Positions 3,982-17,207 of a DNA stretch of 17,207 bases are shown one piece after another. The notes below the pieces were generated by a model. It ran no database searches. It saw only the letters and a list, made by a program, of their open reading frames with translations, and was not told where the DNA came from. The position numbers and the translations under genes are program-made. Source of the stretch: Clostridia bacterium (GTDB lineage: Bacteria; Bacillota; Clostridia; Peptostreptococcales; Anaerovoracaceae); NCBI GenBank assembly GCA_900754805.1, contig CAAEEE010000471.1:1-17207 (forward strand), in the 5' to 3' direction. Each line of letters begins with the position of its first letter. Positions within the stretch are counted from its first letter, which is position 1.

Positions 3982-3997
3982 GTATAGAATCCCCAAA

Positions 3998-4047
3998 AAA
4001 ACAGCCGGAAAGAGAGGCAATTTCCTTATCTTTTATACGGCTGTTTT
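3998..4047 (+). terminator. Rho-independent terminator after the surface protein gene
   Basis: AAAACAGCCG at 3998-4007 pairs perfectly with CGGCTGTTTT at 4038-4047. Inside the loop a second interrupted helix (AAAGAGAGG with CCTTATCTTT) can extend the stem. The A-rich left side and T-rich right side mean it could work in both directions, but only the + strand has a gene upstream. Confidence 0.85.
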
Positions 4048-4058
4048 ATTGTCTGCAG

Positions 4059-4088
4059 GTATAGACAGCTTGGATAACGGCATATAAT
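4059..4088 (+). promoter_or_regulatory. Candidate sigma-E-type promoter for yabP
   Basis: GTATAGA at 4059-4065, a 15 bp spacer, then CATATAAT at 4081-4088. This resembles the sporulation sigma-E pattern (an ATA-containing -35 and a CATAnnnT -10), and yabP belongs to the sigma-E regulon in Bacillus subtilis. The same DNA can be read as a weak sigma-A site: TAGACA at 4062-4067 and TATAAT at 4083-4088, with a short 15 bp spacer. The choice between the two is an inference. Confidence 0.5.
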
Positions 4089-4156
4089 GCGTAGTAGACA
4101 ACGATGCAGACAAATAATGTGCAGAAAAAAGTTGGAAAGTTGTAAGGAGGGACAGC

Positions 4157-4426
4157 ATGGAAAGCCATTACATAAACATTGACAATCGAAAGAGAATTAC
4201 CATCAGTCAGGTGGCAGATGTGGATGCGTTCGACGAGGATACCTTATGGGCGAACCTGAAAGAAGGCGGGCTGGAGATAACCGGGGAAAATCTGAATGTT
4301 GAGAAGCTGGATTTGCAGGAGGGAATTCTGATTGTGACCGGAGAAATCTGCTCCGTTTCGTACACGGATAAGGGTTCAAAAAAGACAAAAGGCCTTGGAA
4401 GATTCGGAAGACGAAAAGAAAAATGA
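4157..4426 (+). CDS. yabP: Sporulation protein YabP
   Basis: An 89-residue protein of the YabP/YqfC family, full length for the family. It is a small beta-rich protein in which acidic and hydrophobic residues alternate: an N-terminal segment around NIDNRKRITISQV, then GLEITGENLNVEKLDL and a strand around GILIVTGEI. The basic C-terminus (GRFGRRKEK) is typical. YabP is made in the mother cell under sigma-E in Bacillus; its exact biochemical role is not settled, although the neighbouring YabQ is needed for the cortex. AAGGAGG at 4144-4150, six bases before the ATG, fixes the start. The stop overlaps the yabQ start as ATGA, and the gene order yabP-yabQ-divIC matches Bacillus and Clostridia. Confidence 0.9.
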   Translation: MESHYINIDNRKRITISQVADVDAFDEDTLWANLKEGGLEITGENLNVEKLDLQEGILIVTGEICSVSYTDKGSKKTKGLGRFGRRKEK

Positions 4427-4761
4427 CCGAATTAATCAGAAGCCAGATCATCATTATACTGACAATGCTTTACTGCGGACTTTGCGCAGGGCTGATTTCT
4501 GATGTTTTCCGCGCTTTTGCCGAAATACGGAGTGTGCGCCGCTGGGTGAAGGGTGTGCTGGGTGCGGTCTTTTTCCTTTGCATCGGTTTTTTATACGGTG
4601 AGTTCGCGTTTTTCTGTGATAATGGGAAGATAAGCTTTCTTGGGATATTTTCCTTCCTCGCAGGTCTTTGGTTGTGGAAGAGATTCTTTTGTGGTATACT
4701 CTTCATGGGTGAGGAGAATGAGAAAAAAGAAAAGCAATTTAAGGGAATACGAAAAGAATAA
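4423..4761 (+). CDS. yabQ: Spore cortex biosynthesis protein YabQ
   Basis: A 112-residue, very hydrophobic protein with about three to four membrane segments: near residues 6-24 (IIIILTMLYCGLCAGLIS), 43-60 and 70-95. In Bacillus, YabQ sits in the outer forespore membrane and is required for cortex formation. A DVFRAF-type segment after the first membrane helix and a conserved position behind yabP support the call. The start overlaps yabP by 4 bp (ATGA), implying translational coupling. The charged C-terminus (EENEKKEKQ...) is encoded by DNA that also carries the promoter and start of divIC, so its sequence may be partly constrained by that overlap. Confidence 0.85.
   Translation: MTELIRSQIIIILTMLYCGLCAGLISDVFRAFAEIRSVRRWVKGVLGAVFFLCIGFLYGEFAFFCDNGKISFLGIFSFLAGLWLWKRFFCGILFMGEENEKKEKQFKGIRKE
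4672..4700 (+). promoter_or_regulatory. Candidate vegetative promoter inside yabQ, reading into divIC
   Basis: TTGTGG at 4672-4677, a 17 bp spacer and TATACT at 4695-4700, with a TGn extended -10 at 4692-4694. Transcription would begin near 4706-4708, about ten bases before the preferred divIC ATG. It would let divIC, rnmV and ksgA be transcribed during growth, independently of the sporulation genes. Confidence 0.55.
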
Positions 4762-5206
4762 CAGGGTAATAAACATTCCACAGGCGCAGACGGAGCGGCG
4801 CGAGCGTCTTCAGCAGCAGAAAAACCGCCGTGGGAATGTCGAGCCGTTTGACTCTGAAAGCGCGGAACGAGAATCCGGGCGGAGTACGGCAAGAAAAGGA
4901 AAAATAAACTATTCGAAACTGATTGTATGCGCTGTGATAGTTTTTCTCATAGTGTATTTTGCCATGTCTGCAATTAAAATTGTTAAGCTCGGTAAAGAAA
5001 AGGATGCGGCGGCTGCATACAATGCAGAACTGACGAAGGACAAGGAGAGTCTCGAACTTCAACTTGAGAACATTAACTCGCCTGATTACATAGAATCGCA
5101 GGCGCGGAGCGACCTCAAGCTGATAAAGCCAAACGAGCTTCTCTTCGTTTTTCCGGATACTGATTACAGCAAGGATGAAAAAAATGGAGAAAATCAAAGT
5201 CAATGA
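4718..5206 (+). CDS. divIC: Septum formation initiator DivIC/FtsB family protein
   Basis: A bitopic division protein, 162 residues from the chosen ATG. It has a basic cytoplasmic N-terminus (1-65), one membrane helix (about 68-88, LIVCAVIVFLIVYFAMS), a short coiled coil (89-120) and the family motif around SPDYIESQARSDLKL (121-135) before a short acidic tail. With FtsL and DivIB it forms the outer-face complex that activates septal wall synthesis. The reading frame is open back to 4640, but that start would overlap yabQ by 122 bp and add an unrelated N-terminus. GTG at 4709 is another option. GAGGAG at 4711-4716 lies too close to ATG 4718 for a normal ribosome binding site, so the start is uncertain. 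It overlaps both yabQ and rnmV. Confidence 0.85.
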   Translation: MRKKKSNLREYEKNNRVINIPQAQTERRERLQQQKNRRGNVEPFDSESAERESGRSTARKGKINYSKLIVCAVIVFLIVYFAMSAIKIVKLGKEKDAAAAYNAELTKDKESLELQLENINSPDYIESQARSDLKLIKPNELLFVFPDTDYSKDEKNGENQSQ

Positions 5207-5735
5207 GGTAATAATCGTTGAGGGCCGCGATGACACAGCGGCGGTCAAGCAGGCAGCAGACGGTCTCATTATAGAGACACACGGGTTCGGAATACGCAGG
5301 CAGACCTGGGAGCTCATCGAAAAGGCTTACCGAGAAAAGGGCATTATCATTCTGACAGACCCGGACTTTTCGGGAGAAGAAATCCGCAGGAAGCTGACGG
5401 AAAAATTTCCGGATGCCAAGCAGGCATTTTTAGACCGCACGCTTGCAACGAAAAAAGGCGACATCGGCATTGAAAATGCTGCGCCTGAGGCGATTGCCGA
5501 AGCACTTCTGAAAGCGCACTGCACAGTAAAAGACGGAGCAGAGGATGTGTTTACGGAAGAAGAGATGTTCCAAAACAGGCTTGCAGGAGATGCTGCCTCA
5601 AGGCAGAGGCGAGAAAAAGTCGGCAAGGCACTGGGCATCGGCTATGGAAATGCGAAAGCGTTTCTCGGCAAGCTGAATAAATTTAACATAAGCAAAGAGG
5701 ATTTTTATGAAGCTTTACGCACCATCGACGATTAG
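5184..5735 (+). CDS. rnmV: Ribonuclease M5 (5S rRNA maturation)
   Basis: A 183-residue TOPRIM-domain nuclease that cleaves double-stranded precursor 5S rRNA to give mature 5S rRNA. The TOPRIM motifs are clear: IIVEGRDD with catalytic Glu13, then LTDPDFSG with Asp59 and Asp61. A basic C-terminal half (SRQRREKVGKALGIGYGNAK) is typical of the RNA-binding region. ATG 5184 is preferred over ATG 5175 because AAGG at 5171-5174 is nine bases from the former but touches the latter. The gene overlaps the end of divIC and overlaps ksgA by 29 bp, as rnmV and ksgA are also paired in Bacillus. Confidence 0.92.
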   Translation: MEKIKVNEVIIVEGRDDTAAVKQAADGLIIETHGFGIRRQTWELIEKAYREKGIIILTDPDFSGEEIRRKLTEKFPDAKQAFLDRTLATKKGDIGIENAAPEAIAEALLKAHCTVKDGAEDVFTEEEMFQNRLAGDAASRQRREKVGKALGIGYGNAKAFLGKLNKFNISKEDFYEALRTIDD

Positions 5736-6576
5736 GGAAATTAAGGAAAAATACGGATTCCGCCTGACAAAAAGTCTGGGGCAGAATTTTTTGACGGATA
5801 AGAATATCATAGACCGCATTATAGAAGGTGCACAGATCGGTGAGAACGATTTGGTTATCGAAATCGGACCGGGAATCGGTGTGATTACCTACGAAACATC
5901 GATTGCGGCAAGAAAGGTAATCGCCGTGGAAATCGACCGCAATCTGATTCCGATTCTCGCAGAAACACTGGCGGAAAGGGACAATATCGAGGTTGTAAAC
6001 CGCGACATCCTGAAAACAGATGTCAATGCGCTGATTGCGGAAGCAAGAGAAAAAGACCCGGCAATCGAAAAGGTTCGGATTATCGGAAATCTCCCGTATT
6101 ACATTACAACTCCGATTATTATGAAACTCCTTGAAGAGGCAGTCTGCGCAGACGGAATTACCGTTATGATGCAGAAGGAAGTTGCGGATCGGATTAAAGC
6201 ATCTGCCGGAAATAAAACCTATGGCGCATTGTCCGTTGCCGTGCAGTACTACTGCGAGGTTGAAGGCGTTGTGAATGTGCCGAAAGAGGTTTTCGTGCCA
6301 CAGCCGAAGGTGGACTCCGCAGTTCTGAATTTAAAAATAAGAAAAGAAAAGCCGGTAGAGCTTATGGACGATCAGGTTTTCTTTCAGGTCGTAAAAGCAG
6401 GTTTTGGACAGAGGCGAAAGACCTTGAATAACTCGCTTATGGGGGTAGAGGGTATTACCAAGGAAATCGCAGGTGCTGCGCTTGAAGCAGCAAGAATAGA
6501 GCCTTCCAGACGTGCAGAAACGCTGACTCTGGAGGAATTCGCAAAATTATCAAACGAGGTAAAATTGAGATTATAA
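5707..6576 (+). CDS. rsmA: 16S rRNA (adenine1518/1519-N6) dimethyltransferase
   Basis: A 289-residue RsmA (KsgA) enzyme, full length. It transfers four methyl groups from S-adenosylmethionine to two adjacent adenines in the 3' hairpin of 16S rRNA during 30S assembly. KSLGQNFL at 22-29 is the family N-terminal motif, EIGPGIGVIT from Glu52 is the SAM-binding loop, and NLPY at 128-131 is the catalytic adenine-N6 motif. A C-terminal helical domain with GFGQRRKTLNNSL completes the fold. Its start lies inside rnmV, 29 bp before that gene's stop, so the two rRNA-processing proteins are probably translationally coupled. Loss of this enzyme gives kasugamycin resistance in other bacteria. Confidence 0.96.
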   Translation: MKLYAPSTIREIKEKYGFRLTKSLGQNFLTDKNIIDRIIEGAQIGENDLVIEIGPGIGVITYETSIAARKVIAVEIDRNLIPILAETLAERDNIEVVNRDILKTDVNALIAEAREKDPAIEKVRIIGNLPYYITTPIIMKLLEEAVCADGITVMMQKEVADRIKASAGNKTYGALSVAVQYYCEVEGVVNVPKEVFVPQPKVDSAVLNLKIRKEKPVELMDDQVFFQVVKAGFGQRRKTLNNSLMGVEGITKEIAGAALEAARIEPSRRAETLTLEEFAKLSNEVKLRL

Positions 6577-6595
6577 CGCAGAAAGGGAAACAGAA

Positions 6596-8677
6596 ATGGA
6601 TGAGAACAATAAAAAGGACAGGCTGGAAAAGTTTGAACATTTTAACCAGTTTGAAAAGTTAGACAGAAAAGTTGAAGAAACGATTCGCGAAGTTGAAAGG
6701 ATGGACAGGCGCAAATTTTACAAGAACAGCTTTGTCTTCGCGGGTATATGGGCAATTGCTCTGAATTTGATTATAGAAACGCTGGGAAGATTTACAACCG
6801 CAGGCATATTCGGCGGCTTGAAATTCATGGTCGGCGATCCGATTGTTTTTTTATACAATGCTTTGATTTTATTTACGACGCTTGTGCTTGCCTCTTTAGT
6901 TAAGCGTAGAATTTTCGTCTTTACGATTGTTTCTATCTTCTGGGTGGGCATCGGCATTGTCAACGGCGTAATTTTGACGCAGCGTATGACACCGTTTACG
7001 GTAAAGGATTTAAGCAATTTGAGCGATGGGCTTACGATCGTTACGAATTATCTGAAGACATGGCAGATTGTGCTTGCCGTGGTTGTAGTTGTTTTGGCAA
7101 TCCTCGGACTCGTACTGCTTTTTATCAAGGGTCCGCAAAAAAAAGACAAACTTCACAGAAAGAGAAATGCTGTGGCAGTCTGTCTCATATTCCTTTTTAC
7201 ATTCCTCTCGTCGTCTCTGGCAATCAGCGCCGGAGTTGTGGAAACCTTCTTCGGAAACTTAGCTTATGCGTACAGAGACTACGGTGTGGTATACTGCTTT
7301 ACGAATACATGGTTGAATACGGGGATTCATAAGCCGGCGAAGTACAGTGAAGAAAGCATTTTGAATATTTTCGATAAAAACGAGCTGGGTGACGACAATG
7401 CGATGCTTCTAAAGCAAAAAGATGTGGATGAGCAGTATCCGAACATCCTTTTCCTTCAGTTGGAATCCTTTATCGACCCGATGACGATAAAGAGCATCGA
7501 GCTTTCAGAGGACCCTTGCCCGAACTTCCGGAGACTCATGAGTGAATATTCCTCAGGACAGCTTTTGGTTCCGGCGTGCGGTGCGGGAACTGCCAATGTT
7601 GAATTTGAGGTTTTGACGGGACTGAGCGTGAAGTTCTTCGGACCGGGCGAATATCCGTATAAAGCGATTTTGAAGGAAGAAACCGGGGAGAGCCTTGCTT
7701 ACGACCTTGACAGTCTGGGCTATAAATCCCACGCAATTCACAACCACAGAGCGGTATTCTACAACCGCAATACCGTATTTTCCAATATCGGTTTTGATAC
7801 TTTCACCAGCGTGGAATACATGAAAAATGTAGTGAAAACGCCGAAAAACTGGGCGAAAGACAAGGCTTTGACAGAGTGTATCGAGGATGCGCTGGACTCT
7901 TCGGAAGGAAGAGATATGATTTACACGATTTCCGTTCAGGGACACGGAAAATATCCAAGTGAGCAGATAATTTTAGATCCGAAGATTCAGGTTTTATCTG
8001 CGCCAAGCGAAGAACTTAAGTGGAAATATGAGTATTATGTGAACCAGATTTATGAAATGGATCAGTTCATCGGCGATTTGGTCGATAAACTTTCCAAGCG
8101 TGATGAACCGATTATGCTGGCGATGTACGGCGACCATATTCCGGCAATCGATATGACTGAAGACGATTTGGAGAGTGGAAACCTCTATGCGACGCAGTAT
8201 TTAATCTGGGATAATTTCGGATTGCCGAAAGACGATGAGAACCTTCACACCTATCAGCTCGCAGCGCATATGATGGATATGGTGGATTTACAGGTAGGAA
8301 CAATTTTTACCTACCAGCAAAACCACAAAAACAGTGAAACTTATTTAGACGATCTGAAGGCACTGGGCTATGATATGCTCTACGGTAAGCGCTATATTTA
8401 CGGCGGCACGAATCCGTTCACACCGTCGAAGCTGAAGATGGGCGTAAACGATATTACAATCGACGATGTCGTTAAGATTGGTGAAAAATATTATATTAAA
8501 GGCAAAAACTTTACGCAGTACAGTAAGATTACTTTAAACGGTAAGGAACTGAAAACAATCTATCTGGGCGAGAACATACTGGGTCTTTTAGAGGATGTTG
8601 ATCCGGAAGAGGCCGCAAACATGAAGGTCAGCCAGATTGAAACCAAGAACAAAGAAATTTTGAGTACGACGGAGTAA
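6596..8677 (+). CDS. LtaS-like sulfatase-fold membrane enzyme (lipoteichoic acid synthase family) with extra C-terminal domain
   Basis: A 693-residue protein: a charged N-terminal cytoplasmic segment of about 45 residues (EKFEHFNQFEKLDRKVEE), about five membrane helices up to roughly 225, an extracellular sulfatase domain (about 280-600), and a C-terminal tail from 615 that resembles an IPT/TIG beta domain (YYIKGKNFTQYSKITLNG). The catalytic set is intact: Glu290, nucleophile Thr332 in GAGTANVEFE, His450 in VQGHGK, and Asp513-His514 in YGDHIP. Their spacing matches Staphylococcus aureus LtaS (Glu255, Thr300, His416, Asp475-His476). The family moves glycerol phosphate from phosphatidylglycerol onto a lipid or glycan acceptor; whether this one makes lipoteichoic acid or a related polymer is unknown. 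AAAGGG before the ATG and a 19 bp gap after rsmA suggest co-transcription. Confidence 0.9.
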   Translation: MDENNKKDRLEKFEHFNQFEKLDRKVEETIREVERMDRRKFYKNSFVFAGIWAIALNLIIETLGRFTTAGIFGGLKFMVGDPIVFLYNALILFTTLVLASLVKRRIFVFTIVSIFWVGIGIVNGVILTQRMTPFTVKDLSNLSDGLTIVTNYLKTWQIVLAVVVVVLAILGLVLLFIKGPQKKDKLHRKRNAVAVCLIFLFTFLSSSLAISAGVVETFFGNLAYAYRDYGVVYCFTNTWLNTGIHKPAKYSEESILNIFDKNELGDDNAMLLKQKDVDEQYPNILFLQLESFIDPMTIKSIELSEDPCPNFRRLMSEYSSGQLLVPACGAGTANVEFEVLTGLSVKFFGPGEYPYKAILKEETGESLAYDLDSLGYKSHAIHNHRAVFYNRNTVFSNIGFDTFTSVEYMKNVVKTPKNWAKDKALTECIEDALDSSEGRDMIYTISVQGHGKYPSEQIILDPKIQVLSAPSEELKWKYEYYVNQIYEMDQFIGDLVDKLSKRDEPIMLAMYGDHIPAIDMTEDDLESGNLYATQYLIWDNFGLPKDDENLHTYQLAAHMMDMVDLQVGTIFTYQQNHKNSETYLDDLKALGYDMLYGKRYIYGGTNPFTPSKLKMGVNDITIDDVVKIGEKYYIKGKNFTQYSKITLNGKELKTIYLGENILGLLEDVDPEEAANMKVSQIETKNKEILSTTE

Positions 8678-8698
8678 GAAAGGCAGCAGACAGACACA

Positions 8699-10069
8699 AT
8701 GCAACCGGGACATTTTATTGGAATCGCCATGGCTTTGGCAGCATTTATCATTGTAGAAATGAAATCTTCCGCGAAGGTAAAGAGCGCGGCAGACTTTGAC
8801 AAAGGAGGCGGAAAAGGAGGCGTATTTCTGGTATGCGGAACGCTGCTGGGAACGATTATCGCAGGACAGTCGACAATCGGAACGGCGCAGTTTGCGTTTA
8901 CCTATGGGCTGGCAGGAATCTGGTACACGCTGGGCTCGGCGCTCGGCTGCTTGATGTTCTATTTCGGCTATATTATACCGCTGCGAATCTCGCATGACAG
9001 CACACTGACAGAGGTTATCGGCGACGAGTTTGGGCCTCAGGCTTCCTATTTCGGCTCAGTGCTCTGCACGCTCGGAATGCTTATCAGTGTGGTCTCCAAC
9101 ATGATTGCATCATCTGCGCTTGTAACAGCACTGACAGGCTGGAAGCTTTGGGAGGGCTGCCTGCTGGCAATGGTACTGATGTTTGCCTATGTAGCACTCG
9201 GCGGCATAATCGGAGCAGGAATGGGCGGCGTTGTTAAAACGATACTGCTTTATATCCTGACGATTACCTGCATTTTCGTGACGATTCGGCTGACCGGGGA
9301 AATCGGACCGGGCACAAAACTGGATGTAGACATTCACGATCTATTCGCCAGAGGTGTGGCGAAGGAGCTTTTCAACGGTCTTGCACTTATTTTAGGGATA
9401 ATCTCTACGCAGTCCTATGCGCAGGCATTTTGGGTTGCGAAGAACTATCATGTTGCCAGAAAAGGCGCTTTAATCGGGGCACTGTTGTGTCTTCCGGTCG
9501 GGTTTGGAAGCGTGCTGGTCGGAATTTTTATGAAAAACCATAATTTGCAAAACGCAGCGGAAGCCTTTCCGACTTTCCTGCTTCATTATATGAATCCGCT
9601 TATCGGAGGGTTGGGGCTTGGAGCACTGATTGTCACGGTTGTGACAGGCGCAGGCGGACTGGTGCTTGGGGCTTCGACGATTTTAGTCAGAGATATTCTG
9701 GGCAGACGGAATCCAAAATACCGCGAAGGCAGGTGCCATCTGATTGCGATGCGGACAATGATTGTTACCATTCTTCTTTGTGCGGCAGTCATTGCTGTGA
9801 GCCTTCCGGGAACGCTGATGAACGATCTCGGTTTCCTTTCCATGGGACTTCGTGGGACGGTCATTTTCGTGCCGCTGAGTCTGGCATTGTTCTTTAAAGG
9901 GAGATTCGATTCGAAATGGATATGCGCGTCCATGATTGCAGGACCGATTTTGCTTATCATCGGAAATATTGTTAATATAGGACCGCCGCCGCTGATTTGG
10001 GGCGTTGCGGCAAATCTCATCATTTGTATGATGGGTTACAGAAAAACACAGGAGGTGCTTTCAAAATGA
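8699..10069 (+). CDS. Sodium:solute symporter family protein
   Basis: A 456-residue membrane protein with about 12 hydrophobic segments. It fits the SSS family (the PutP/SGLT group): a glycine-rich first core helix (GTLLGTIIAGQSTIGTAQFA) followed by the YGLAGIWYTLG motif, then STQSYAQAFWVAKN in a later helix. These proteins couple uptake of sugars, amino acids or organic acids to the sodium gradient. The substrate cannot be told from sequence. The length is at the short end for the family. It follows the LtaS-like gene by 21 bp with only a weak, distant ribosome binding site (AAGG about 16 bases upstream), so the exact start is less sure. It overlaps the acetyltransferase start by 4 bp. Confidence 0.82.
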   Translation: MQPGHFIGIAMALAAFIIVEMKSSAKVKSAADFDKGGGKGGVFLVCGTLLGTIIAGQSTIGTAQFAFTYGLAGIWYTLGSALGCLMFYFGYIIPLRISHDSTLTEVIGDEFGPQASYFGSVLCTLGMLISVVSNMIASSALVTALTGWKLWEGCLLAMVLMFAYVALGGIIGAGMGGVVKTILLYILTITCIFVTIRLTGEIGPGTKLDVDIHDLFARGVAKELFNGLALILGIISTQSYAQAFWVAKNYHVARKGALIGALLCLPVGFGSVLVGIFMKNHNLQNAAEAFPTFLLHYMNPLIGGLGLGALIVTVVTGAGGLVLGASTILVRDILGRRNPKYREGRCHLIAMRTMIVTILLCAAVIAVSLPGTLMNDLGFLSMGLRGTVIFVPLSLALFFKGRFDSKWICASMIAGPILLIIGNIVNIGPPPLIWGVAANLIICMMGYRKTQEVLSK

Positions 10070-10614
10070 AAACAATCGAAACCGAAAGACTGCTTTTGAC
10101 GCCGTGGACGACGGACGAAGCGGATGTAGAGGGACTGTATGCGTATGCAAAAAATCCGAATGTCGGACCGAACGCAGGCTGGAGTCCTCATGCAAGCCTG
10201 GAAGAATCAAAGGAGATTATCGAGACTTTATTTCTTCCGAATGAGGTTTGGGCAATCCGTGAAAAGGAAAGCGGCAAAATCATGGGAAGCATTGGACTGG
10301 AACCCGATCGGCGCAGGGAAGATGTAAAAAGCTTGGAAATGGGCTATTCTCTGGGCGAAGAATTTTGGGGATGCGGCTATATGACGGAGGCTGCCAGGGC
10401 GGTGATGGATTATGCTTTTCGCGAACTTGACATCGTGGTTATGGCAATCTGCACCGGACCTGAGAATAAACGCTCGCAGCGCGTCATTGAAAAATGCGGA
10501 TTCCGCTTTGAGGGAATCCAGCGGAAGGGCTACCACATCTACGACGGAACAGATCGGGACAATGTAGTCTATTCCATATTAAAAGAAGAGTTTTTGGACG
10601 GAGAAAAAGAATAA
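10066..10614 (+). CDS. GNAT family N-acetyltransferase (RimJ/RimL-like)
   Basis: A 182-residue acetyltransferase that begins with the RimJ/RimL-type signature TERLLLTPW. The acetyl-CoA region is visible as LGEEFWGCGYMTEA (FWGCGY at 100-105), and the C-terminal core has the common PENKRSQRVIEKCGF motif. Such enzymes acetylate protein N-termini, aminoglycosides or small amines; the substrate here is unknown. The frame is open back to 9997, but GGAGGT at 10051-10056 and the ATGA overlap with the symporter stop fix the start at 10066. The tight coupling suggests the two are made together, though a functional link is not evident. Confidence 0.88.
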   Translation: MKTIETERLLLTPWTTDEADVEGLYAYAKNPNVGPNAGWSPHASLEESKEIIETLFLPNEVWAIREKESGKIMGSIGLEPDRRREDVKSLEMGYSLGEEFWGCGYMTEAARAVMDYAFRELDIVVMAICTGPENKRSQRVIEKCGFRFEGIQRKGYHIYDGTDRDNVVYSILKEEFLDGEKE

Positions 10615-10629
10615 ACAGAAGAGAGAAAT

Positions 10630-11346
10630 ATGCAAAAGATAAAGAAATGGTTTTTACGACTGCTTGTCGTTTTGATTGCGCTTGCCATGATAGGCGTTTT
10701 GCTTGTCATGCTTATCAATAACCGCGTAAAGTCACAGACAAGGGATGATATTTTATATGCGATGCAGGCGGATATGGAAATAAACGCTGTAAGCAAGCAG
10801 AATCTCAAAGATTTTCAGGCGGAGTGCGCAATCGTGCTTGGGTGCGGAATTGAAGACGAAGAGACCCCCAGCCCTATGTTGAAAGACAGGCTGGATACAG
10901 GTATTAAACTTTATACCGAAGGAATTGTACCGAAAATTTTGCTGACGGGAGACAACGGGCAGGTCGGACATAACGAAATTCATGTTATGCTGAAATATAC
11001 CCACGAGGCAGGAGTTCCGGAGAACGATATTTTCTGCGATCATGCGGGCTTTTCCACTTACGACTCGATGTATCGCGCTGCCGATATTTTTAAGGTGCGG
11101 CGTGCGATTATCGTAACGCAGAAGTACCACGAGTACCGGGCACTGTATATCGCGAAAAAATTGGGAATCGAGGTATGCGGCGTTGCGGCGGAGCAGGATT
11201 CCTATTTCGGTCAGTCTTATCGGGAACTGCGGGAAATTCTTGCGCGGGATAAAGACTTCGTCAAGGCGATTCTCAGGCAAAAAGCAACCTTCGGCGGTGA
11301 GGCAATTCCAATCAGTGGGAGCGGAATCAGCAGTCACGGTGAATAA
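10630..11346 (+). CDS. SanA/ElyC/YdcF-type DUF218 membrane protein
   Basis: A 238-residue protein with an N-terminal basic patch and a single membrane helix (about 7-29, FLRLLVVLIALAMIGVLLVM), then a DUF218 domain. The domain shows AIVLGCG at 67-73, a LKDRLDTG segment, KILLTGDNG, and a conserved ENDIFCDHAGFSTYDS / VTQKYHEYRALYIAK core, with the STYDS and QKYHEYRA motifs typical of SanA-like members. SanA and ElyC affect envelope integrity in Escherichia coli (vancomycin sensitivity, lipid carrier use), but the biochemical activity is not settled. It lies 15 bp behind the acetyltransferase and is the last gene before a terminator. Confidence 0.85.
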   Translation: MQKIKKWFLRLLVVLIALAMIGVLLVMLINNRVKSQTRDDILYAMQADMEINAVSKQNLKDFQAECAIVLGCGIEDEETPSPMLKDRLDTGIKLYTEGIVPKILLTGDNGQVGHNEIHVMLKYTHEAGVPENDIFCDHAGFSTYDSMYRAADIFKVRRAIIVTQKYHEYRALYIAKKLGIEVCGVAAEQDSYFGQSYRELREILARDKDFVKAILRQKATFGGEAIPISGSGISSHGE

Positions 11347-11381
11347 AATACGCACGAAAACAGCGAAACAGGCATAGTATG

Positions 11382-11408
11382 TAGAGGACGGAAATGTCCT
11401 CTATTTTT
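11382..11408 (+). terminator. Rho-independent terminator closing the yabP-to-sanA-like gene run
   Basis: TAGAGGAC at 11382-11389 pairs perfectly with GTCCTCTA at 11396-11403 across a six-base loop, followed by a run of T. It separates the upstream operon from the cysteine desulfurase gene. Because it lies only about 30 bp before that gene, it could instead act as an attenuator if transcription reads through. Confidence 0.85.
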
Positions 11409-11430
11409 ATTATGCGAGGAAGGTCAAGTT

Positions 11431-12576
11431 ATGATATATCTGGATAATGGTGCCACATCCTACCCGAAGCCAAAGGGGATGGTGGCGGCGATGGAGGAGT
11501 GTATTTTAAAATACTGCGGCAATCCCGGTCGTTCAGGGCATTTCATGTCCATGAAAACAGGTGAGGAAGTATATCATGCCAGAAGAAAGATTGCAGAGCT
11601 TTTTAACATTGAGCAGGCAGAGCGGCTTATTTTTACGAAAAATACGACGGAGGCGTTAAATCTGGGGCTTACAGGACTGCTGAAGGAGGGCGACCATGTC
11701 ATTACGACTTCGATGGAGCACAACTCGGTACTGCGCCCACTGAAATCGCTGGAGCGCAAAGGCATTTCACAGACGGTAATCCGCGCAGACAGGCAGGGAA
11801 GAATCAAAGTCTCCGATATTGAAAAAACGATAAGGCCGAGCACGAAGCTGATTGTAATTACGGCGGCGTCTAATGTTACCGGAACGAAGATGCCCCTTGC
11901 AGAAATCGGCACTCTGGCAAGAAAACGCGGAATTCTCTTTATGGTCGACGGTGCGCAGGGTGCAGGCTGCATGAAGATCGATGTCCGCGAAATGAACATC
12001 GGAATGCTGGCAGTGCCGGGGCATAAGGGTCTTTTAGGTCCTTTGGGAACCGGAGCACTGTATGTAAGCCCGCAGACGGAAATTGCGCCTCTGCTTGCGG
12101 GAGGAACCGGAACGGAATCAAAAAGCCGAATCCAACCAAGGGAGTTTCCGGACGGATTCGAGGCAGGAACAATCAACGCGCCCGGAATTATCGGCATGGG
12201 ATTTTCCGCCGAGTTTATAGGAAAAATCGGGGTTGAGGTAATCGAGGAATATGAAAAAAATCTGATAGGCTGGCTTGACGAAGCCTTCGACAATATGGAC
12301 TTTGTTCACAGGTACGGCCCGGGCTGCGAGGAAAAAACGGGAATTACGCTCATCAATGTAGACGGAATCGGGGCGGAAGAACTTACCACGACGCTTAGCA
12401 GCGAATACAGCATCGCGGTGCGTGGCGGCTATCACTGCGCAGGACTGGCACATAAGACCATCGGCACATGGAACACCGGAGCTGTGCGAATCAGTACCGG
12501 ACCGTTTAATACGAAGAAAGATATGGAAAAAATTGCAGATGCGGTCTGGAAAATCGGCAGTAGACAAAACGCTTAA
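11431..12576 (+). CDS. Cysteine desulfurase family protein (class V aminotransferase fold, SufS/Csd-like)
   Basis: A 381-residue PLP enzyme. It starts with YLDNGATSYPKP, has TEALNLGL for cofactor phosphate binding, EHNSVLRP, VDGAQGAG with the aspartate that contacts the pyridine ring, Lys199 in VPGHKGLLGPLGTG as the PLP-linked lysine, and the sulfur-accepting Cys336 in RGGYHCAGLAH. The length is slightly shorter than SufS (about 405). Members remove sulfur from cysteine for Fe-S clusters, thiolation or related uses. No SufU, IscU, SufBCD or selenium gene lies next to it, so its pathway is open. AGGAAGG a few bases before the ATG supports the start. No convincing promoter is seen in the 84 bp after the upstream gene. 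Confidence 0.9.
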   Translation: MIYLDNGATSYPKPKGMVAAMEECILKYCGNPGRSGHFMSMKTGEEVYHARRKIAELFNIEQAERLIFTKNTTEALNLGLTGLLKEGDHVITTSMEHNSVLRPLKSLERKGISQTVIRADRQGRIKVSDIEKTIRPSTKLIVITAASNVTGTKMPLAEIGTLARKRGILFMVDGAQGAGCMKIDVREMNIGMLAVPGHKGLLGPLGTGALYVSPQTEIAPLLAGGTGTESKSRIQPREFPDGFEAGTINAPGIIGMGFSAEFIGKIGVEVIEEYEKNLIGWLDEAFDNMDFVHRYGPGCEEKTGITLINVDGIGAEELTTTLSSEYSIAVRGGYHCAGLAHKTIGTWNTGAVRISTGPFNTKKDMEKIADAVWKIGSRQNA

Positions 12577-12626
12577 AAATGTGTAAAGTAAATGTAAGAA
12601 AAAATCACCCACAGAACAAGATTTAA

Positions 12627-12635
12627 TGGTATACT
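12627..12635 (+). promoter_or_regulatory. Extended -10 promoter for the lipoprotein gene
   Basis: TGGTATACT at 12627-12635 is a TGn extended -10. No good -35 is seen at the usual 16-18 bp distance. It lies 38 bp before the lipoprotein ATG in the 97 bp gap after the cysteine desulfurase gene. The same nine bases occur at 4692-4700 before divIC. Confidence 0.6.
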
Positions 12636-12673
12636 GTAGGCAAAGATGATGTGAAAAAGAATAGGAGATACGA

Positions 12674-13483
12674 ATGAAAAAGAAATTAGTCGCAATCTTC
12701 ATGATATTTATGATGAGCGTTTCTCTCATCGCTTGCGGAAGTACGGATGATTCGAAAACATCAACGGACGCTGATACACAGATGGAAGCAGACAGCGATG
12801 CCAACGAAGATGAGGACGCAGGCGAAATTACCGACAGCGTTCCCGATGTCATTACTCCGAACAGCATTGCGGGCGAAAGCGAAGCAGAGTATGATTTAGG
12901 TGCTAAGGCCGCTAAGAGTTTTGGCATGTCGCAGACGCTGAAAAAGATAAGTTATAAAGATCTTTCTAAAATTGGAGACACGCTGGAAAGCGCGATGGAA
13001 AAGGGTCTTTCGAAGTCTGCCCTGAGCAATTTTGTAATTTCGTTCAATGAATACGAAGACGACGAGGCGGATAATATCGATCAGCTTGCATATGTGGTTG
13101 CGCTTGAGGATGACGATATGGAAAAGACCTCGATTGAGATGGGCGCATATCACAGCACGAAAGACGATAAATACTATCAGTATAATTTCTATACTTCCGA
13201 GACGCTCACAAGTGACATGGCATCCGTGAAAGCGATTTTGGCGGAAATCAAGAGCGCATACGGGGTGACCCTTTCGCAGTCAAAGGTCGAGAAAGCCCTG
13301 AAGGCGGCATGGAAGAAGGCAAAGGTAAACGAAGATTATTACGGCGTATACCAAAAGACAGAATATAAAGGTGACGGTTATCGTGACGGCGTTACCGCGG
13401 GCATCGATGTCGGCTATGATGAGGAAGGCAACATGAGCGCCTACATCTATGTTGAAAGAGAAAGATTGTATACAAAGCAGTAA
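12674..13483 (+). CDS. Lipoprotein of unknown function
   Basis: A 269-residue secreted lipoprotein. The signal peptide is short (MKKK plus a hydrophobic stretch) and ends in the lipobox SLIAC, so Cys21 would be lipidated. A low-complexity Ser/Thr/Asp/Glu linker (about 22-60) tethers a globular part. That part begins with a basic helical stretch (SQTLKKISYKDLSKIGDTLE), contains a strand-rich middle (NFVISFNEYED, YVVALEDDDMEKTSIEMGAY) and ends in a tail rich in Tyr and Gly (GDGYRDGVTAGIDVGYDEEG). I do not recognise the family. It has its own extended -10 promoter and lies 18 bp before the DUF2750 gene, so the two are probably co-transcribed. Confidence 0.85.
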   Translation: MKKKLVAIFMIFMMSVSLIACGSTDDSKTSTDADTQMEADSDANEDEDAGEITDSVPDVITPNSIAGESEAEYDLGAKAAKSFGMSQTLKKISYKDLSKIGDTLESAMEKGLSKSALSNFVISFNEYEDDEADNIDQLAYVVALEDDDMEKTSIEMGAYHSTKDDKYYQYNFYTSETLTSDMASVKAILAEIKSAYGVTLSQSKVEKALKAAWKKAKVNEDYYGVYQKTEYKGDGYRDGVTAGIDVGYDEEGNMSAYIYVERERLYTKQ

Positions 13484-13501
13484 GGGAAAGGCAGGAAAAA
13501 A

Positions 13502-14326
13502 ATGAGCAAAGCACAGTTGGTCTATATAAATTTTATAACAGAAACGGTCAGACGTGGAGAGGTCTGGATGCTGATGAAAGAGGAACGGGTTGCAATCGTC
13601 GAAACAGAAGACGGAGCGAAGATTCCTCTTTGGGCATCGCGAGAGGAAGCAAACGGACACCGCATTGCAGACTGGAAGGACTTCGAGCCTGTGAATGTCT
13701 CGCTTCCGGAGTTTCTTTGCATCTGCGTACCGGAGTTCGCAGACGATGATGTAGACGCCATCATCGGGCTGGATGAAGAGGGCGGAATCGCACGAAGGAT
13801 TGAGGAACTCGATATGGATTTAAGAGACGAAGCGGACGAGCAGGGAATCGACCTCGACAGTCTTGAGGGGGAAGTTATGGATATGATGGATAATGTGGAT
13901 GATTATGACGATATTATCGAAGAAATCGTGGAAAACGGTGTCGTCTGGGCTCTATTTGACGAGGACGGCGAGGCGATTTATGCGGATACGGATGTGGACG
14001 ATAAAGCTCTGCCGATTTGGGCTTCTGGTGCGGATGCAGCCCTGCAGTGCAGGGAAGAATGGGACGACTGCGTACCGGGAAGCATTCCGCTGGACGAATT
14101 TATAGAGGAATGGATACCTTTGCTCGATAAGGAAAATACGGCAGTTCTCTTTATTTTAGATGAAGAGGAAGCAATCGGCAGCGACGCAAAGAGCGTTGAG
14201 CAGGATTTGCTTGCAGAAATTGGCCTTCAGTTCGGATATGAAGATGCAGAGGATGACGATAAAGATGAAGAGGACACAGAATTCGACTTCGATAATGTGA
14301 TTCCGTTTCCGGGAGTTCTGCATTAA
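13502..14326 (+). CDS. Acidic protein with two tandem DUF2750 domains
   Basis: A 274-residue, strongly acidic, presumably cytoplasmic protein built from two copies of one module. Copy one (about 5-95) has GEVWML, IPLWASREEA and DFEPVNVSLPEF. Copy two (about 137-235) has GVVWALFDEDG, LPIWASGADA and DCVPGSIPLDEF. The pattern (VW-L ... LP-W-S ... P-L-EF) fits DUF2750, whose function is unknown. Each copy is followed by a similar helical segment (RRIEELDMDLRDEA and KSVEQDLLAEIGLQ), so the duplicated unit is longer than the core domain. An Asp/Glu-rich stretch (248-262) precedes the C-terminus. No terminator is visible after it, and the AT-rich accessory region starts just beyond. Confidence 0.75.
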   Translation: MSKAQLVYINFITETVRRGEVWMLMKEERVAIVETEDGAKIPLWASREEANGHRIADWKDFEPVNVSLPEFLCICVPEFADDDVDAIIGLDEEGGIARRIEELDMDLRDEADEQGIDLDSLEGEVMDMMDNVDDYDDIIEEIVENGVVWALFDEDGEAIYADTDVDDKALPIWASGADAALQCREEWDDCVPGSIPLDEFIEEWIPLLDKENTAVLFILDEEEAIGSDAKSVEQDLLAEIGLQFGYEDAEDDDKDEEDTEFDFDNVIPFPGVLH

Positions 14327-14463
14327 TTAGCATAGGGAATCAAAACACAAGCGGCTCGACCAATAATGAGGTGCCGTAACGAAGGTTTTGAAAACAAGTG
14401 GTAAAGATAATCGGTACGGTATATTGCAGAAACATCTAAAACTTATATTTGGAGGAAACTGCA
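14327..14463 (+). other. Junction between chromosomal genes and accessory DNA
   Basis: This 137 bp gap separates the DUF2750 gene from tnpV. It contains only short broken reading frames; a 12-codon frame at 14366-14404 is too short to support as a gene. TATATT at 14420-14425 is a possible -10 without a clear -35. No terminal inverted repeat, target duplication or tRNA end is seen, so the precise element boundary is not resolved. Confidence 0.35.
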
Positions 14464-14835
14464 ATGAAATCATTATTTGAACAAATGGGTGGCACATATC
14501 ACGAGGAAAATGGTTATCTAATTCCTAATCTGACCTTACCCACCGAACAAGAAACTGAAATTGGGTTGTGGGGACGGCGACACCGACGGTACATCAAGCA
14601 ATACCGCAAGGTGTTCTACACTAATCTGCTGACAAGTGACAAGTTGAACGGATACCTCGCTGACATTAACAAGCAGGCAGAGGATATGCTTTTTCGGCTC
14701 GTAAAACAAATGGCTGAGCGTGAGGGCGTGACAGAACAGCTCAAAGCAGACAATCAAATGGAGTGGGTTGCTCGGATGAATAATATCCGCAGCAGAGCCA
14801 CAGAAATCGTAAATAACGATATAATCTATAACTAA
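14464..14835 (+). CDS. tnpV: TnpV-family transposon-encoded protein
   Basis: A 123-residue protein that matches TnpV in length and pattern. TnpV proteins come from clostridial mobile elements of the Tn4451 type and their relatives; their biochemical role is not established. Visible family features are the N-terminal KSLFEQMGGTYHEENGYLIPNLTLP, a GLWGRRHRRYIKQYRK stretch followed by LLTSDKLNGYLADIN, and the highly conserved C-terminal MAEREGVTEQLKA / MEWVARMNNIRSRATEIV. GGAGGA at 14451-14456 supports ATG 14464 over an in-frame TTG at 14449. No recombinase, relaxase or other element gene accompanies it here, so it may be a remnant or the edge of a larger element. Confidence 0.9.
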   Translation: MKSLFEQMGGTYHEENGYLIPNLTLPTEQETEIGLWGRRHRRYIKQYRKVFYTNLLTSDKLNGYLADINKQAEDMLFRLVKQMAEREGVTEQLKADNQMEWVARMNNIRSRATEIVNNDIIYN

Positions 14836-14846
14836 TCGAGAACGGC

Positions 14847-14880
14847 GGCAGGGAGAACAATTCTCCTTGCCGTCATTTTG
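14847..14880 (+). terminator. Rho-independent terminator after tnpV
   Basis: GGCAGGGAGAA at 14847-14857 pairs with TTCTCCTTGCC at 14861-14871 with one G-T wobble and a three-base loop, followed by a short T-rich tail (CATTTT). It isolates tnpV from the helicase gene, which then needs its own promoter. Confidence 0.8.
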
Positions 14881-14914
14881 ATTTGCAAAAGTGGTAGGAA
14901 AAGACACAGTTATA

Positions 14915-14937
14915 TGGTATAATATTATTGGTATAGT
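14915..14937 (+). promoter_or_regulatory. Tandem extended -10 elements for the helicase gene
   Basis: TGGTATAAT at 14915-14923 and TGGTATAGT at 14929-14937 lie 14 bp apart, 38-52 bp upstream of the helicase ATG. Both carry the TGn extension, and neither has a good -35. Either or both could start the helicase transcript. GGAGGA at 14964-14969 is the ribosome binding site. Confidence 0.6.
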
Positions 14938-14974
14938 ATATTCACAGCAAAAAAACTGTTTTTGGAGGACAGAG

Positions 14975-17207
14975 ATGTATACTGCAATCAAGGACTACTG
15001 TAATAACAGCAATAACAACGGCTTGTTTTTGCTTGATATGCCCACAGGATACGGTAAGACTTACTCTGTCCTCGAATATATCTACGAAGCATCGTTGGAT
15101 GAGTCTAACAGTAAAAGGCGGTTTTTCTTTATAACAACTTTAAAGAAGAATCTTCCTACTGAAGAACTTAAAAATTGGTTTGAAAAGGCAGGTCAATTAG
15201 ATAAGTTTAATGAGAAATTTCTTTTTATAGATGCTAATGCAGATTGCGTAATCGATGGTCTTAAGAGCGAAATAATCAATGAAATACCGAGCGAAATTAA
15301 AAGGACGGATGAATATAAATCCTTTGTTCAAGATGTAAGATTCTTGCAAGAACAAAAAAATGTAAACAAAGATGAACTGCGAGGTTTTATCGGGAGTATA
15401 AAGGATAACCTTCGTAGCAAATCTGAACCTAATTTCAGAAAATTACTACAAACAATGTTGGCAAAAGAATTTCCTACAGTCAACGAACGCATTTACGCAA
15501 TAAAAACGAATAAAAGATGGCAATGGCTCGGAAAACTATATCCCGCAGTATACACTCGTGATAAACAAATCATTTTTATGAGTATGGATAAGTTTTTAAC
15601 GAGAAATGCTACAATTGTAGAACCTTCATATATGTTCTACAATACTGACATCATTGATAATGCAGCTATATTCATCGATGAGTTTGATGCAACAAAAGAA
15701 ACTTTATTAAAAAACATCATACAAAACGGACTGAGAGATAAGATCGATTATATTGAACTGTTCAAGGACATTTACTCCGCTCTACATACTAATGAATTTC
15801 CTACTGTACTTACCACACCGTCTAAGCAAAGGAAAGAAAGTAAATACAAGGATCAGACATTACAATCCGTAATTGATGGAATTCGGGAAAAAGCCGATGC
15901 AATCTATGAGAATTACACCTTACAGTTTAGCCACAGAACCTCAACAGATGTTGCAGATAATACTAAGAATTTCTTGTTCCAAGATCATCAATTCCATTCT
16001 ATTTTAGATGGAAATAATTCTTACATCACAACTGTAAGTGACACGAAAAATCGCATAAACGCTATTCGCTTTTCTCCCAATAAACCAAATGCAGAAAAGA
16101 ATAATATTCAAGTAATGCTCGGTAAATTACGGGGCTTTATTAAGTATTTTCAAATTGGTATCAATATACTTGCAATAAACTATATGCAATGCAAAGCCGA
16201 ACGCAAACAAAATGGTGATGATGAATTTACTATGGAATCGGCTATACGCTCTGTTTTAGCAGAGTTTAGGCTCAATTCCACATATATTGATTATATAACA
16301 TTACAAATATTGATCGCTTCACATAAAGTGAAAGGCGATATAGAAAATTCTGATTTTGATCTATCTTTTTATGAAAACGGGTTCCGTTTTTATTCATTTG
16401 AAGATGATGCAGTTCACGATATGCAGTCAAAAATAATGATGTGTTCTTTTCAGACTACTCCTGAAAAAATCCTTCTGCGCTTTTGTGAAAAGGCTAAAGT
16501 TATTGGCATATCAGCAACAGCTACCGTGCCTACCGTTATCGGAAACTACGATTTAGATTATCTTAAATCGAAAATGCAAACAGCTTTTTCGTTGCCGAGC
16601 GAAGCCGATAAAACACGCCTTCGTTCCGATTTTTCAAATTCGCTTTGCGGATATGATAATGTGTCCATAAATGTTGAATTATTAGGAGGAAATGTACGGG
16701 ATAACTATTCTGCTTCCGCTTGGAAAATAGTATTTGATTCAGATGAAATTTCTGAAATGATTTTTGACCGAATTGAACGTGAATTACCTGATAATAAAGA
16801 TAACTATCATAAAGAACGCTATATTAGAATCGCTTTAGCTTATAAGCGATTTGTGATGCATAATGATATTCAATCTTTTCTTTGCGTTCTTACAAAGCAT
16901 CCAAGAAAAGGTGACAAATATCTAAACAAGGATGTTCTTGATGAGATTTTCAAGTATATCATTGCAGAAGGCAATGCAAGTATAAGCGCAAATTCTTCTG
17001 TTTATCAGTTAGACGGCGATGAATACGATATAAAAAAGGACGAAATAACTCGTAAACTCTCGGAAGGCCAAAAACTGTTTATTATTTCGGTTTACCAAAC
17101 AATCGGTGCAGGACAAAACTTGCAATATAAGATCCCACGTGGATTGGAAAAAGAACTCATCAAAATCAATGACCGACCCTCTCGTGGCGAAAAAGATTTT
17201 GATGCTA
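14975..17207 (+). CDS. DEAD/DEAH-like SF2 helicase, XPD/DinG-like spacing, family not identified (3' partial)
   Basis: The frame is open from ATG 14975 to the window end; 744 residues are visible with no stop. Motif I (Walker A) is PTGYGKT at 23-29, motif II is DEFD at 235-238 in AIFIDEFDATK, motif III is SATAT at 513-517, and a motif V-like QTIGAGQN starts at Gln708. Motif VI is probably beyond the edge. About 205 residues lie between motifs I and II, and about 275 between II and III. That spacing resembles XPD/DinG helicases, which insert an Fe-S domain and an Arch domain at these places, but only one cysteine lies between motifs I and II, so no Fe-S cluster is expected. The gene is AT-rich (18 of 60 G+C in 15601-15660, against 36 of 60 in 9601-9660). 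Position behind tnpV suggests an acquired defence or mobile-element function; this is inference. Confidence 0.85.
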   Translation, partial: MYTAIKDYCNNSNNNGLFLLDMPTGYGKTYSVLEYIYEASLDESNSKRRFFFITTLKKNLPTEELKNWFEKAGQLDKFNEKFLFIDANADCVIDGLKSEIINEIPSEIKRTDEYKSFVQDVRFLQEQKNVNKDELRGFIGSIKDNLRSKSEPNFRKLLQTMLAKEFPTVNERIYAIKTNKRWQWLGKLYPAVYTRDKQIIFMSMDKFLTRNATIVEPSYMFYNTDIIDNAAIFIDEFDATKETLLKNIIQNGLRDKIDYIELFKDIYSALHTNEFPTVLTTPSKQRKESKYKDQTLQSVIDGIREKADAIYENYTLQFSHRTSTDVADNTKNFLFQDHQFHSILDGNNSYITTVSDTKNRINAIRFSPNKPNAEKNNIQVMLGKLRGFIKYFQIGINILAINYMQCKAERKQNGDDEFTMESAIRSVLAEFRLNSTYIDYITLQILIASHKVKGDIENSDFDLSFYENGFRFYSFEDDAVHDMQSKIMMCSFQTTPEKILLRFCEKAKVIGISATATVPTVIGNYDLDYLKSKMQTAFSLPSEADKTRLRSDFSNSLCGYDNVSINVELLGGNVRDNYSASAWKIVFDSDEISEMIFDRIERELPDNKDNYHKERYIRIALAYKRFVMHNDIQSFLCVLTKHPRKGDKYLNKDVLDEIFKYIIAEGNASISANSSVYQLDGDEYDIKKDEITRKLSEGQKLFIISVYQTIGAGQNLQYKIPRGLEKELIKINDRPSRGEKDFDA

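Follow-up and report, generated by a model that had tools for sequence, protein, structure and literature searches.

The gene that runs off the right end of the analysed DNA, a stretch of 17,207 nucleotides (hereafter the window), is very probably the ddmD gene of a DdmDE anti-plasmid system that a bacterium of Clostridia type acquired on a mobile segment. Judged by its residues, the protein is DdmD, the helicase-nuclease half of that system. An earlier, sequence-only reading of the same DNA had described a large SF2 helicase belonging to no named family. This description has to be replaced, as the residues inside the window already match PDB 9ix4, named DdmD (Lactobacillus casei), at E 5.9e-43. 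The features of the right end of the window are collected in Table 1.

Table 1. Features of the TnpV-ddmD end of the window
Feature	Positions	Strand	Remarks
Left edge of the acquired segment, with the TnpV leader	14362..14448	+	Homology to L001 and L002 starts abruptly at 14362
TnpV gene	14449..14835	+	PF14198, E 5.7e-48; first possible start TTG 14449, ATG 14464 likelier
Terminator-like hairpin between TnpV and ddmD	14844..14874	+	Consensus match only
ddmD 5' part, SF2 helicase part of DdmD	14975..17207	+	744 codons, runs off the window end
Helicase motif I, TGYGKT	15044..15061	+	Residues 24-29
Helicase motif II, DEFD	15677..15688	+	Residues 235-238
Helicase motif III, SATA	16511..16522	+	Residues 513-516
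Motif V-like, QTIGAGQN	17096..17119	+	Residues 708-715

Results

The helicase gene in the window

The plus-strand frame at 14975-17206 stays free of stops until the window end truncates it; when 14362-17207 was base-shuffled 200 times, stop-free runs in the three forward frames reached at most 134 codons. Judged by the nearest full-length relative (locus L001), about 415 of about 1159 DdmD residues lie beyond the window end. When the frame was re-read, helicase motifs I, II, III and the V-like motif, as well as the large inserts between them, were found where the sequence-only reading had placed them, and C91 was indeed the single cysteine between residues 30 and 234, that is, between motifs I and II. 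The AT-rich composition that it had reported was also confirmed: the helicase gene has 34.3% GC, and the four blocks into which 1-14361 was divided have 45.0-47.6%. Its proposal that the gene has its own promoters did not hold up: a single promoter-like site was found in 14300-15050, which is at chance level (shuffle mean 1.6). A terminator-like hairpin does stand between TnpV and ddmD (Table 1), and that region had two terminator-like sites against a shuffle mean of 0.4.

In the PDB search, six distinct sequences matched the window piece at E <= 0.01. The best was 9ix4, whose L. casei origin was taken from the titles of 9ixm and 9iw3, and the other five scored from E 4.3e-10 to 5.1e-10 under the depositor name 'Helicase/UvrB N-terminal domain-containing protein'. 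Three of these five (8u3k, 9ezy and 9bgk) have entry titles that describe V. cholerae DdmD-DdmE or DdmDE complexes, and the remaining two (8u0u and 9khv) carry the same depositor name with nearly equal scores. None of the family collections identified the window piece as DdmD: in Pfam, ResIII reached 22.4 bits, just below its 22.5-bit cut-off, PADLOC returned a weak Cas3c match, and NCBIfam had no match. This near-silence of the three collections explains why the earlier reader was unable to name the helicase.

Full-length relatives and the C-terminal nuclease

The search of public genome contigs found relatives in 11 loci, some of them in records from animal gut samples according to their titles. 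The nearest full-length relative, at L001:10001-13480, is a protein of 1159 residues that is 95% identical to the window protein over its 744 residues, and the DdmD of L002 is 94% identical across 634 residues only. The L001 protein matched the PADLOC DdmD profile at E 2.3e-42 over residues 226-1118 and PDB 9ix4 at E 3.8e-66 over residues 7-1135; all five other relatives given to PADLOC (L003, L006, L007, L009 and L022) matched the DdmD profile at 1.1e-36 to 7.5e-47. In L001, the helicase runs on to QAIGRICR (residues 828-835) and is followed at the C terminus by a PD-(D/E)XK nuclease with the motifs GALGE (1030-1034), ELFDYK (1059-1064) and IDFK (1072-1075), which align with those of the solved DdmDs. 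In an alignment of 11 full-length DdmDs, DxK was present in all 11 and GALGE in 10, the distant L023 protein having AAISE in its place. The DdmDs of the clade measure 1137-1166 residues, and the region of the C-terminal nuclease found in these relatives falls beyond the window end.

The collections were similarly quiet for the relatives. No Pfam family was above cut-off in the three DdmDs scanned, the window piece among them, and NCBIfam had no match for two DdmDs and three DdmEs of the relatives, while ResIII was borne by some relatives among the best 120 of at least 985. Full-length DdmD is rare among species-level genomes: of 391 genomes sampled from the class, 3 have it, as do 3 of 398 sampled from the phylum, G001 (the sample centre) and G042 being counted in both; a fourth match in the class sample was short (5e-4). 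The family is larger in protein collections than the species-level genomes suggest: at least 985 DdmD relatives were found among 7991 scored candidates, and 570 DdmE relatives among 7141.

The DdmE partner

A DdmE-family gene directly follows ddmD in 14 of the 15 loci that extend beyond ddmD (L001, L003-L011, L022, L023 and L055-L057), so that the same neighbour does recur among the homologues, as the sequence-only reading had proposed to check. L001 and L011 do not count as independent, since they are 99.7% identical over 3704 bases. In L001, ddmE starts 17 bases ahead of the ddmD end. The expectation of an Argonaute-like partner downstream was thus borne out for the relatives, and for the window itself it stays an expectation, as the window stops before that position.

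Sequence and fold both point to DdmE, an Argonaute-type protein, as the partner in the relatives. The sequence-only reading had also named pPIWI-RE proteins as neighbours of DinG-type helicases; for the partner in the relatives, the best matches by profile and by fold are DdmE. Three of five partners given to PADLOC matched its DdmE model (L007 at 3.6e-11, L010 at 1.7e-8 and L003 at 6.8e-6), and the other two, from L001 and the Nostoc locus L022, had no match. For the partners of L022 and L023, the name DdmE comes from alignment A1, in which they are 30% and 24% identical to L001 DdmE, and not from PADLOC. A single-sequence phmmer search of the PDB with the L001 partner returned the 9iw3 DdmE at 7.3e-16, an unrelated chain at 0.00012 and V. 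cholerae DdmE only at 0.05. The profile of the 17 sequences in A1 returned four PDB sequences at E <= 0.1, all of them DdmE, with E values from 1e-40 (L. casei) through 1.5e-23 (V. cholerae) to 1.6e-23. An AlphaFold model of the L001 partner built from 15 sequences (pLDDT 78.1, pTM 0.75) was compared with the PDB by Foldseek, and the first six matches were DdmE chains (4.1e-34 to 1.2e-20); the 13 matches at E <= 0.001 further comprised six PIWI/Argonaute chains and the unrelated 7kpv. Against the solved DdmEs the model gave TM (query) values of 0.51-0.64 and rmsd values of 7.9-9.0, and its domain placement is accordingly loose. By column conservation, A1 had no invariant D or E at 388-594, the pattern that loss of the catalytic tetrad would give; in the 15-sequence alignment of clade DdmEs, however, D390 and E439 were invariant.

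The clade DdmEs are compact, with 600-607 residues in the eight loci measured and 597-604 in the best 120 of 570 relatives. A stretch of about 80 residues, which would fall between L001 residues 506 and 507, is absent from them and present in the DdmEs of Nostoc L022 (710 residues) and L. casei; the DdmEs of L055-L057 have 679-693 residues. By these alignments, a compact DdmE without the insertion of about 80 residues appears to be a new detail of the clade. The DdmE at L023:7629-9479, on a Lactobacillus intestinalis plasmid, has 616 residues, is 24% identical to L001 DdmE and also lacks the insertion. It makes a second compact DdmE, which perhaps arose independently of the clade's.

TnpV and the mobile segment

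The sequence-only reading had taken the adjacent tnpV gene as a sign of horizontal acquisition, and both the gene and the inference stood: the TnpV match is strong (Table 1) and a sharp border at 14362 is common to unrelated hosts. From this position the window is 88.0% identical to L001 over 2855 columns and 86.8% identical to L002 over 2526 columns of DNA, and to the left of it the flanks of the three are unrelated. For KsgA, the window shares 45% identity with the L001 genome and 39% with the L002 genome, as against 95% and 94% for DdmD, which argues for movement of the segment from one distant host to another; misassembly is possible in L002, a short metagenome contig.

The host side of the border carries genes of other kinds. 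The run at window 4157-6576 is of sporulation and housekeeping type, with YabP, YabQ, a DivIC-like reading frame (by eye), a Toprim/DUF4093 protein, which we take to be like RNase M5, and KsgA. This run indicates a spore-former of Clostridia type. At the DNA level, 12 of 197 genomes of the order of G001 matched the window, with short and weak matches only, to 6596-10069. Window 1-3981 codes for a surface protein of 1326 residues that is truncated by the left end of the window; it bears seven Spy0128-like isopeptide (FctA) stretches (PF12892, E 1.4e-100) and a C-terminal SIPKTGDE that resembles a sortase signal by eye.

Nine clade loci extend over 1 kb upstream of ddmD. TnpV lies ahead of ddmD in four of them (the window, L001, L002 and L007) and not in the other five (L003-L006 and L010), nor was it found before ddmD in any of the five more distant loci (L022, L023 and L055-L057). 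TnpV is common, being over cut-off in 72 of 196 class-sample genomes against 0 of 14 control genomes, so its presence in a genome says little. The leader of the window TnpV was considered as a general TnpV leader and rejected as such: among 34 TnpV loci it is common only to the window, L001 (the same as L026) and L002 by eye, and a 12-mer from it was present in four loci out of 57, each of them a copy of L001 or L002. The model of TnpV (window 14464-14832, pLDDT 92.8) consists of a small beta hairpin plus helices and had no PDB match at E <= 0.001. The modelled fold neither supports nor excludes the excision role that has been postulated for TnpV (PMC3158075).

To the right of DdmE, L011 has a NikA-like gene (2.7e-11) and a relaxase gene (PF03432, 3.1e-41). 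A terminal repeat of the segment was sought and not found: when the leftmost 16, 20 and 24 bases of L002's segment were compared in both orientations with short stretches right of the segment in L011 and L003, nothing close turned up, the best match having 5 mismatches of 16. The left-end motif had one match in IMG/VR, locus L058, which was taken as chance, as no TnpV or ddm gene was found there. Carriage of the segment by a phage or a plasmid was also considered and rejected: the family had no match in phages, none of six pattern matches in IMG/VR was confirmed, and plasmids gave no near DNA match, the only plasmid-borne relatives being five distant ones of 20-35% identity.

The transposons Tn4451, Tn6104, Tn6105 and Tn6106, as described in PMC3158075, bring together TnpV, accessory genes and a mobilisation gene, which in Tn6104 is placed at the right end. 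The segment resembles them in its TnpV and accessory genes and in the mobilisation-type genes to the right of DdmE in L011. It differs in that its cargo is ddmDE and that no large serine recombinase was seen in the stretches read; in the window and L001, host genes stand beside TnpV where Tn6104 has a serine recombinase gene (same source). By analogy, the segment moves, or moved, presumably as cargo of a Tn4451-like mobilisable transposon; with neither a recombinase nor a right end seen, we infer its transposon status from these likenesses.

Defense setting of the relatives

PADLOC was run on eight neighbours of ddmDE in L003, L004 and L010, and six of them matched something at E <= 0.001. The neighbours in L010 include a type IIG restriction-methylation enzyme (5e-253), an HKD+Snf2 helicase (1.7e-53) and a PDC-M36A candidate (4.4e-39), and those in L004 an AbiO/Nhi-type protein (6.2e-146) and a PDC-S41 candidate (1.1e-169). 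The match of L003:8355-9806 was weak (0.00031), and L003:4091-5644 and L010:8220-9038 had no match at this threshold. In the distant relative L055 (1-5809, minus strand), the genes after DdmE, possible members of a defense island, code for a DUF6414 protein, an AAA ATPase, a member of the 5'-nucleotidase family and a DUF4011/AAA protein that is truncated where the locus ends. The general picture drawn by the sequence-only reading, of a horizontally moved helicase of defense type with few cysteines at the Fe-S ligand positions, agrees with the DdmD match and with the DdmE of the relatives.

Discussion

Three other identities of the window gene were weighed. The one that deserves most attention, unlikely as it is, is an orphan or decaying DdmD with some other role or none. 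It takes its plausibility from L006, where a full DdmD (L006:2214-5705) is followed 48 bases downstream by an ABC transporter gene (PF00005, 9.7e-39) and not by DdmE, and from the fact that the window ends before the partner position. L006 is itself either an orphan DdmD or an assembly error, and because of it a DdmE partner for the window copy is not certain. Against decay, the helicase motifs within the window are intact, and the pair is kept in 14 of 15 loci, among them L001 with its 95% identical protein. We infer that, on the contig of the window, the remainder of ddmD and a ddmE gene lie past the window end.

A somewhat smaller chance is given to an ApsA-type helicase-nuclease of the ApsAB family with an ApsB partner. 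According to PMC11096173, in which the broad ApsA-to-DdmD family was already described, ApsA and DdmD form one broad family of helicases with a PD-(D/E)XK nuclease, and the D-to-DxK layout of the L001 nuclease resembles the D1420...D1433-V-K1435 of ApsA. ApsAB of Escherichia coli is likewise an anti-plasmid helicase-nuclease with an Argonaute-like partner (same source), but ApsB belongs to another family than DdmE. The partner of the relatives is DdmE by sequence and fold, and PMC11096173 reports that no ApsB-DdmE sequence similarity was found. It also places ApsA motifs as far as residue 1435, which makes ApsA longer than the clade DdmDs with their 1137-1166 residues, and it describes a Y-K-Q-K guide-end motif of ApsB as absent from DdmE. 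In A1, Y347, Q363 and K388 are invariant, and the ApsB MID motif Y-x3-K..QG..K was not found, with no invariant K at Y347+4. The reading as a type IV CRISPR CasDinG or a housekeeping DinG/YoaA helicase, the former of which had been brought up by the sequence-only reading, can be set aside almost entirely. L001 does match PADLOC typeIV_DinG weakly (E 2.6e-5), but only over residues 5-47, which cover motif I, whereas the DdmD profile takes in about 900 residues at 2.3e-42; no full-length DinG-type match to L001 was found in PADLOC, and at E <= 0.01 the PDB search of the window piece returned nothing but DdmD sequences. No cas families were found among the 10 window reading frames scanned with Pfam, and among the PADLOC matches listed for the eight neighbours of L003, L004 and L010, the only link to cas genes was a helicase cross-match to Cas3 in one protein.

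The identification as DdmD is also the one in keeping with the systems already solved. Like the DdmDE of L. casei (9ix4, 9iw3, 9ixm) and V. cholerae (8u3k, 9ezy, 9bgk and others), the relatives combine an SF2 helicase and a PD-(D/E)XK nuclease in about 1140-1190 residues, with DdmE as the next gene, the same motifs and the same C-terminal DdmE stretch. They differ from them in their DdmEs, with 600-607 residues against chains of 677-715, mainly by the missing insertion of about 80 residues, and in the TnpV that adjoins ddmD in some clade loci. An earlier description of clostridial DdmDE in print is possible.

The mechanism can be proposed by analogy with V. cholerae. For that organism, PMC12409362 describes plasmid loss caused by DdmDE: DdmE binds single-stranded DNA guides and the plasmid target and recruits DdmD, which exists as an autoinhibited dimer until it is brought to the non-target strand, where its 5' to 3' movement is accompanied by nuclease-dependent cutting; in one passage of PMC12904381 the names DdmD and DdmE are interchanged. 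In the clostridial system, DdmE would likewise carry a single-stranded DNA guide that pairs with plasmid DNA and would recruit DdmD out of its autoinhibited dimer. DdmD would then load onto the non-target strand and move 5' to 3' by its ATPase motor, and its nuclease would cut the plasmid, which would be lost. The relatives do have the helicase and nuclease motifs.

In summary, DdmDE, for which the solved examples to date come from V. cholerae and L. casei, is placed here among uncultured Clostridia as a system that has moved horizontally. The results with PADLOC, NCBIfam and Pfam show that annotation can overlook it, and the compact DdmE offers a natural deletion for asking what the insertion does. 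A broader and distinctly tentative idea, which we hold to be somewhat less probable than its opposite, is that ddmDE is the cargo of a TnpV-marked family of mobilisable transposons that moves between distant Clostridia, carries a stripped-down DdmE and competes with plasmids for hosts. If this is true, an anti-plasmid system on a mobilisable element would clearly exemplify mobile elements in conflict with one another.
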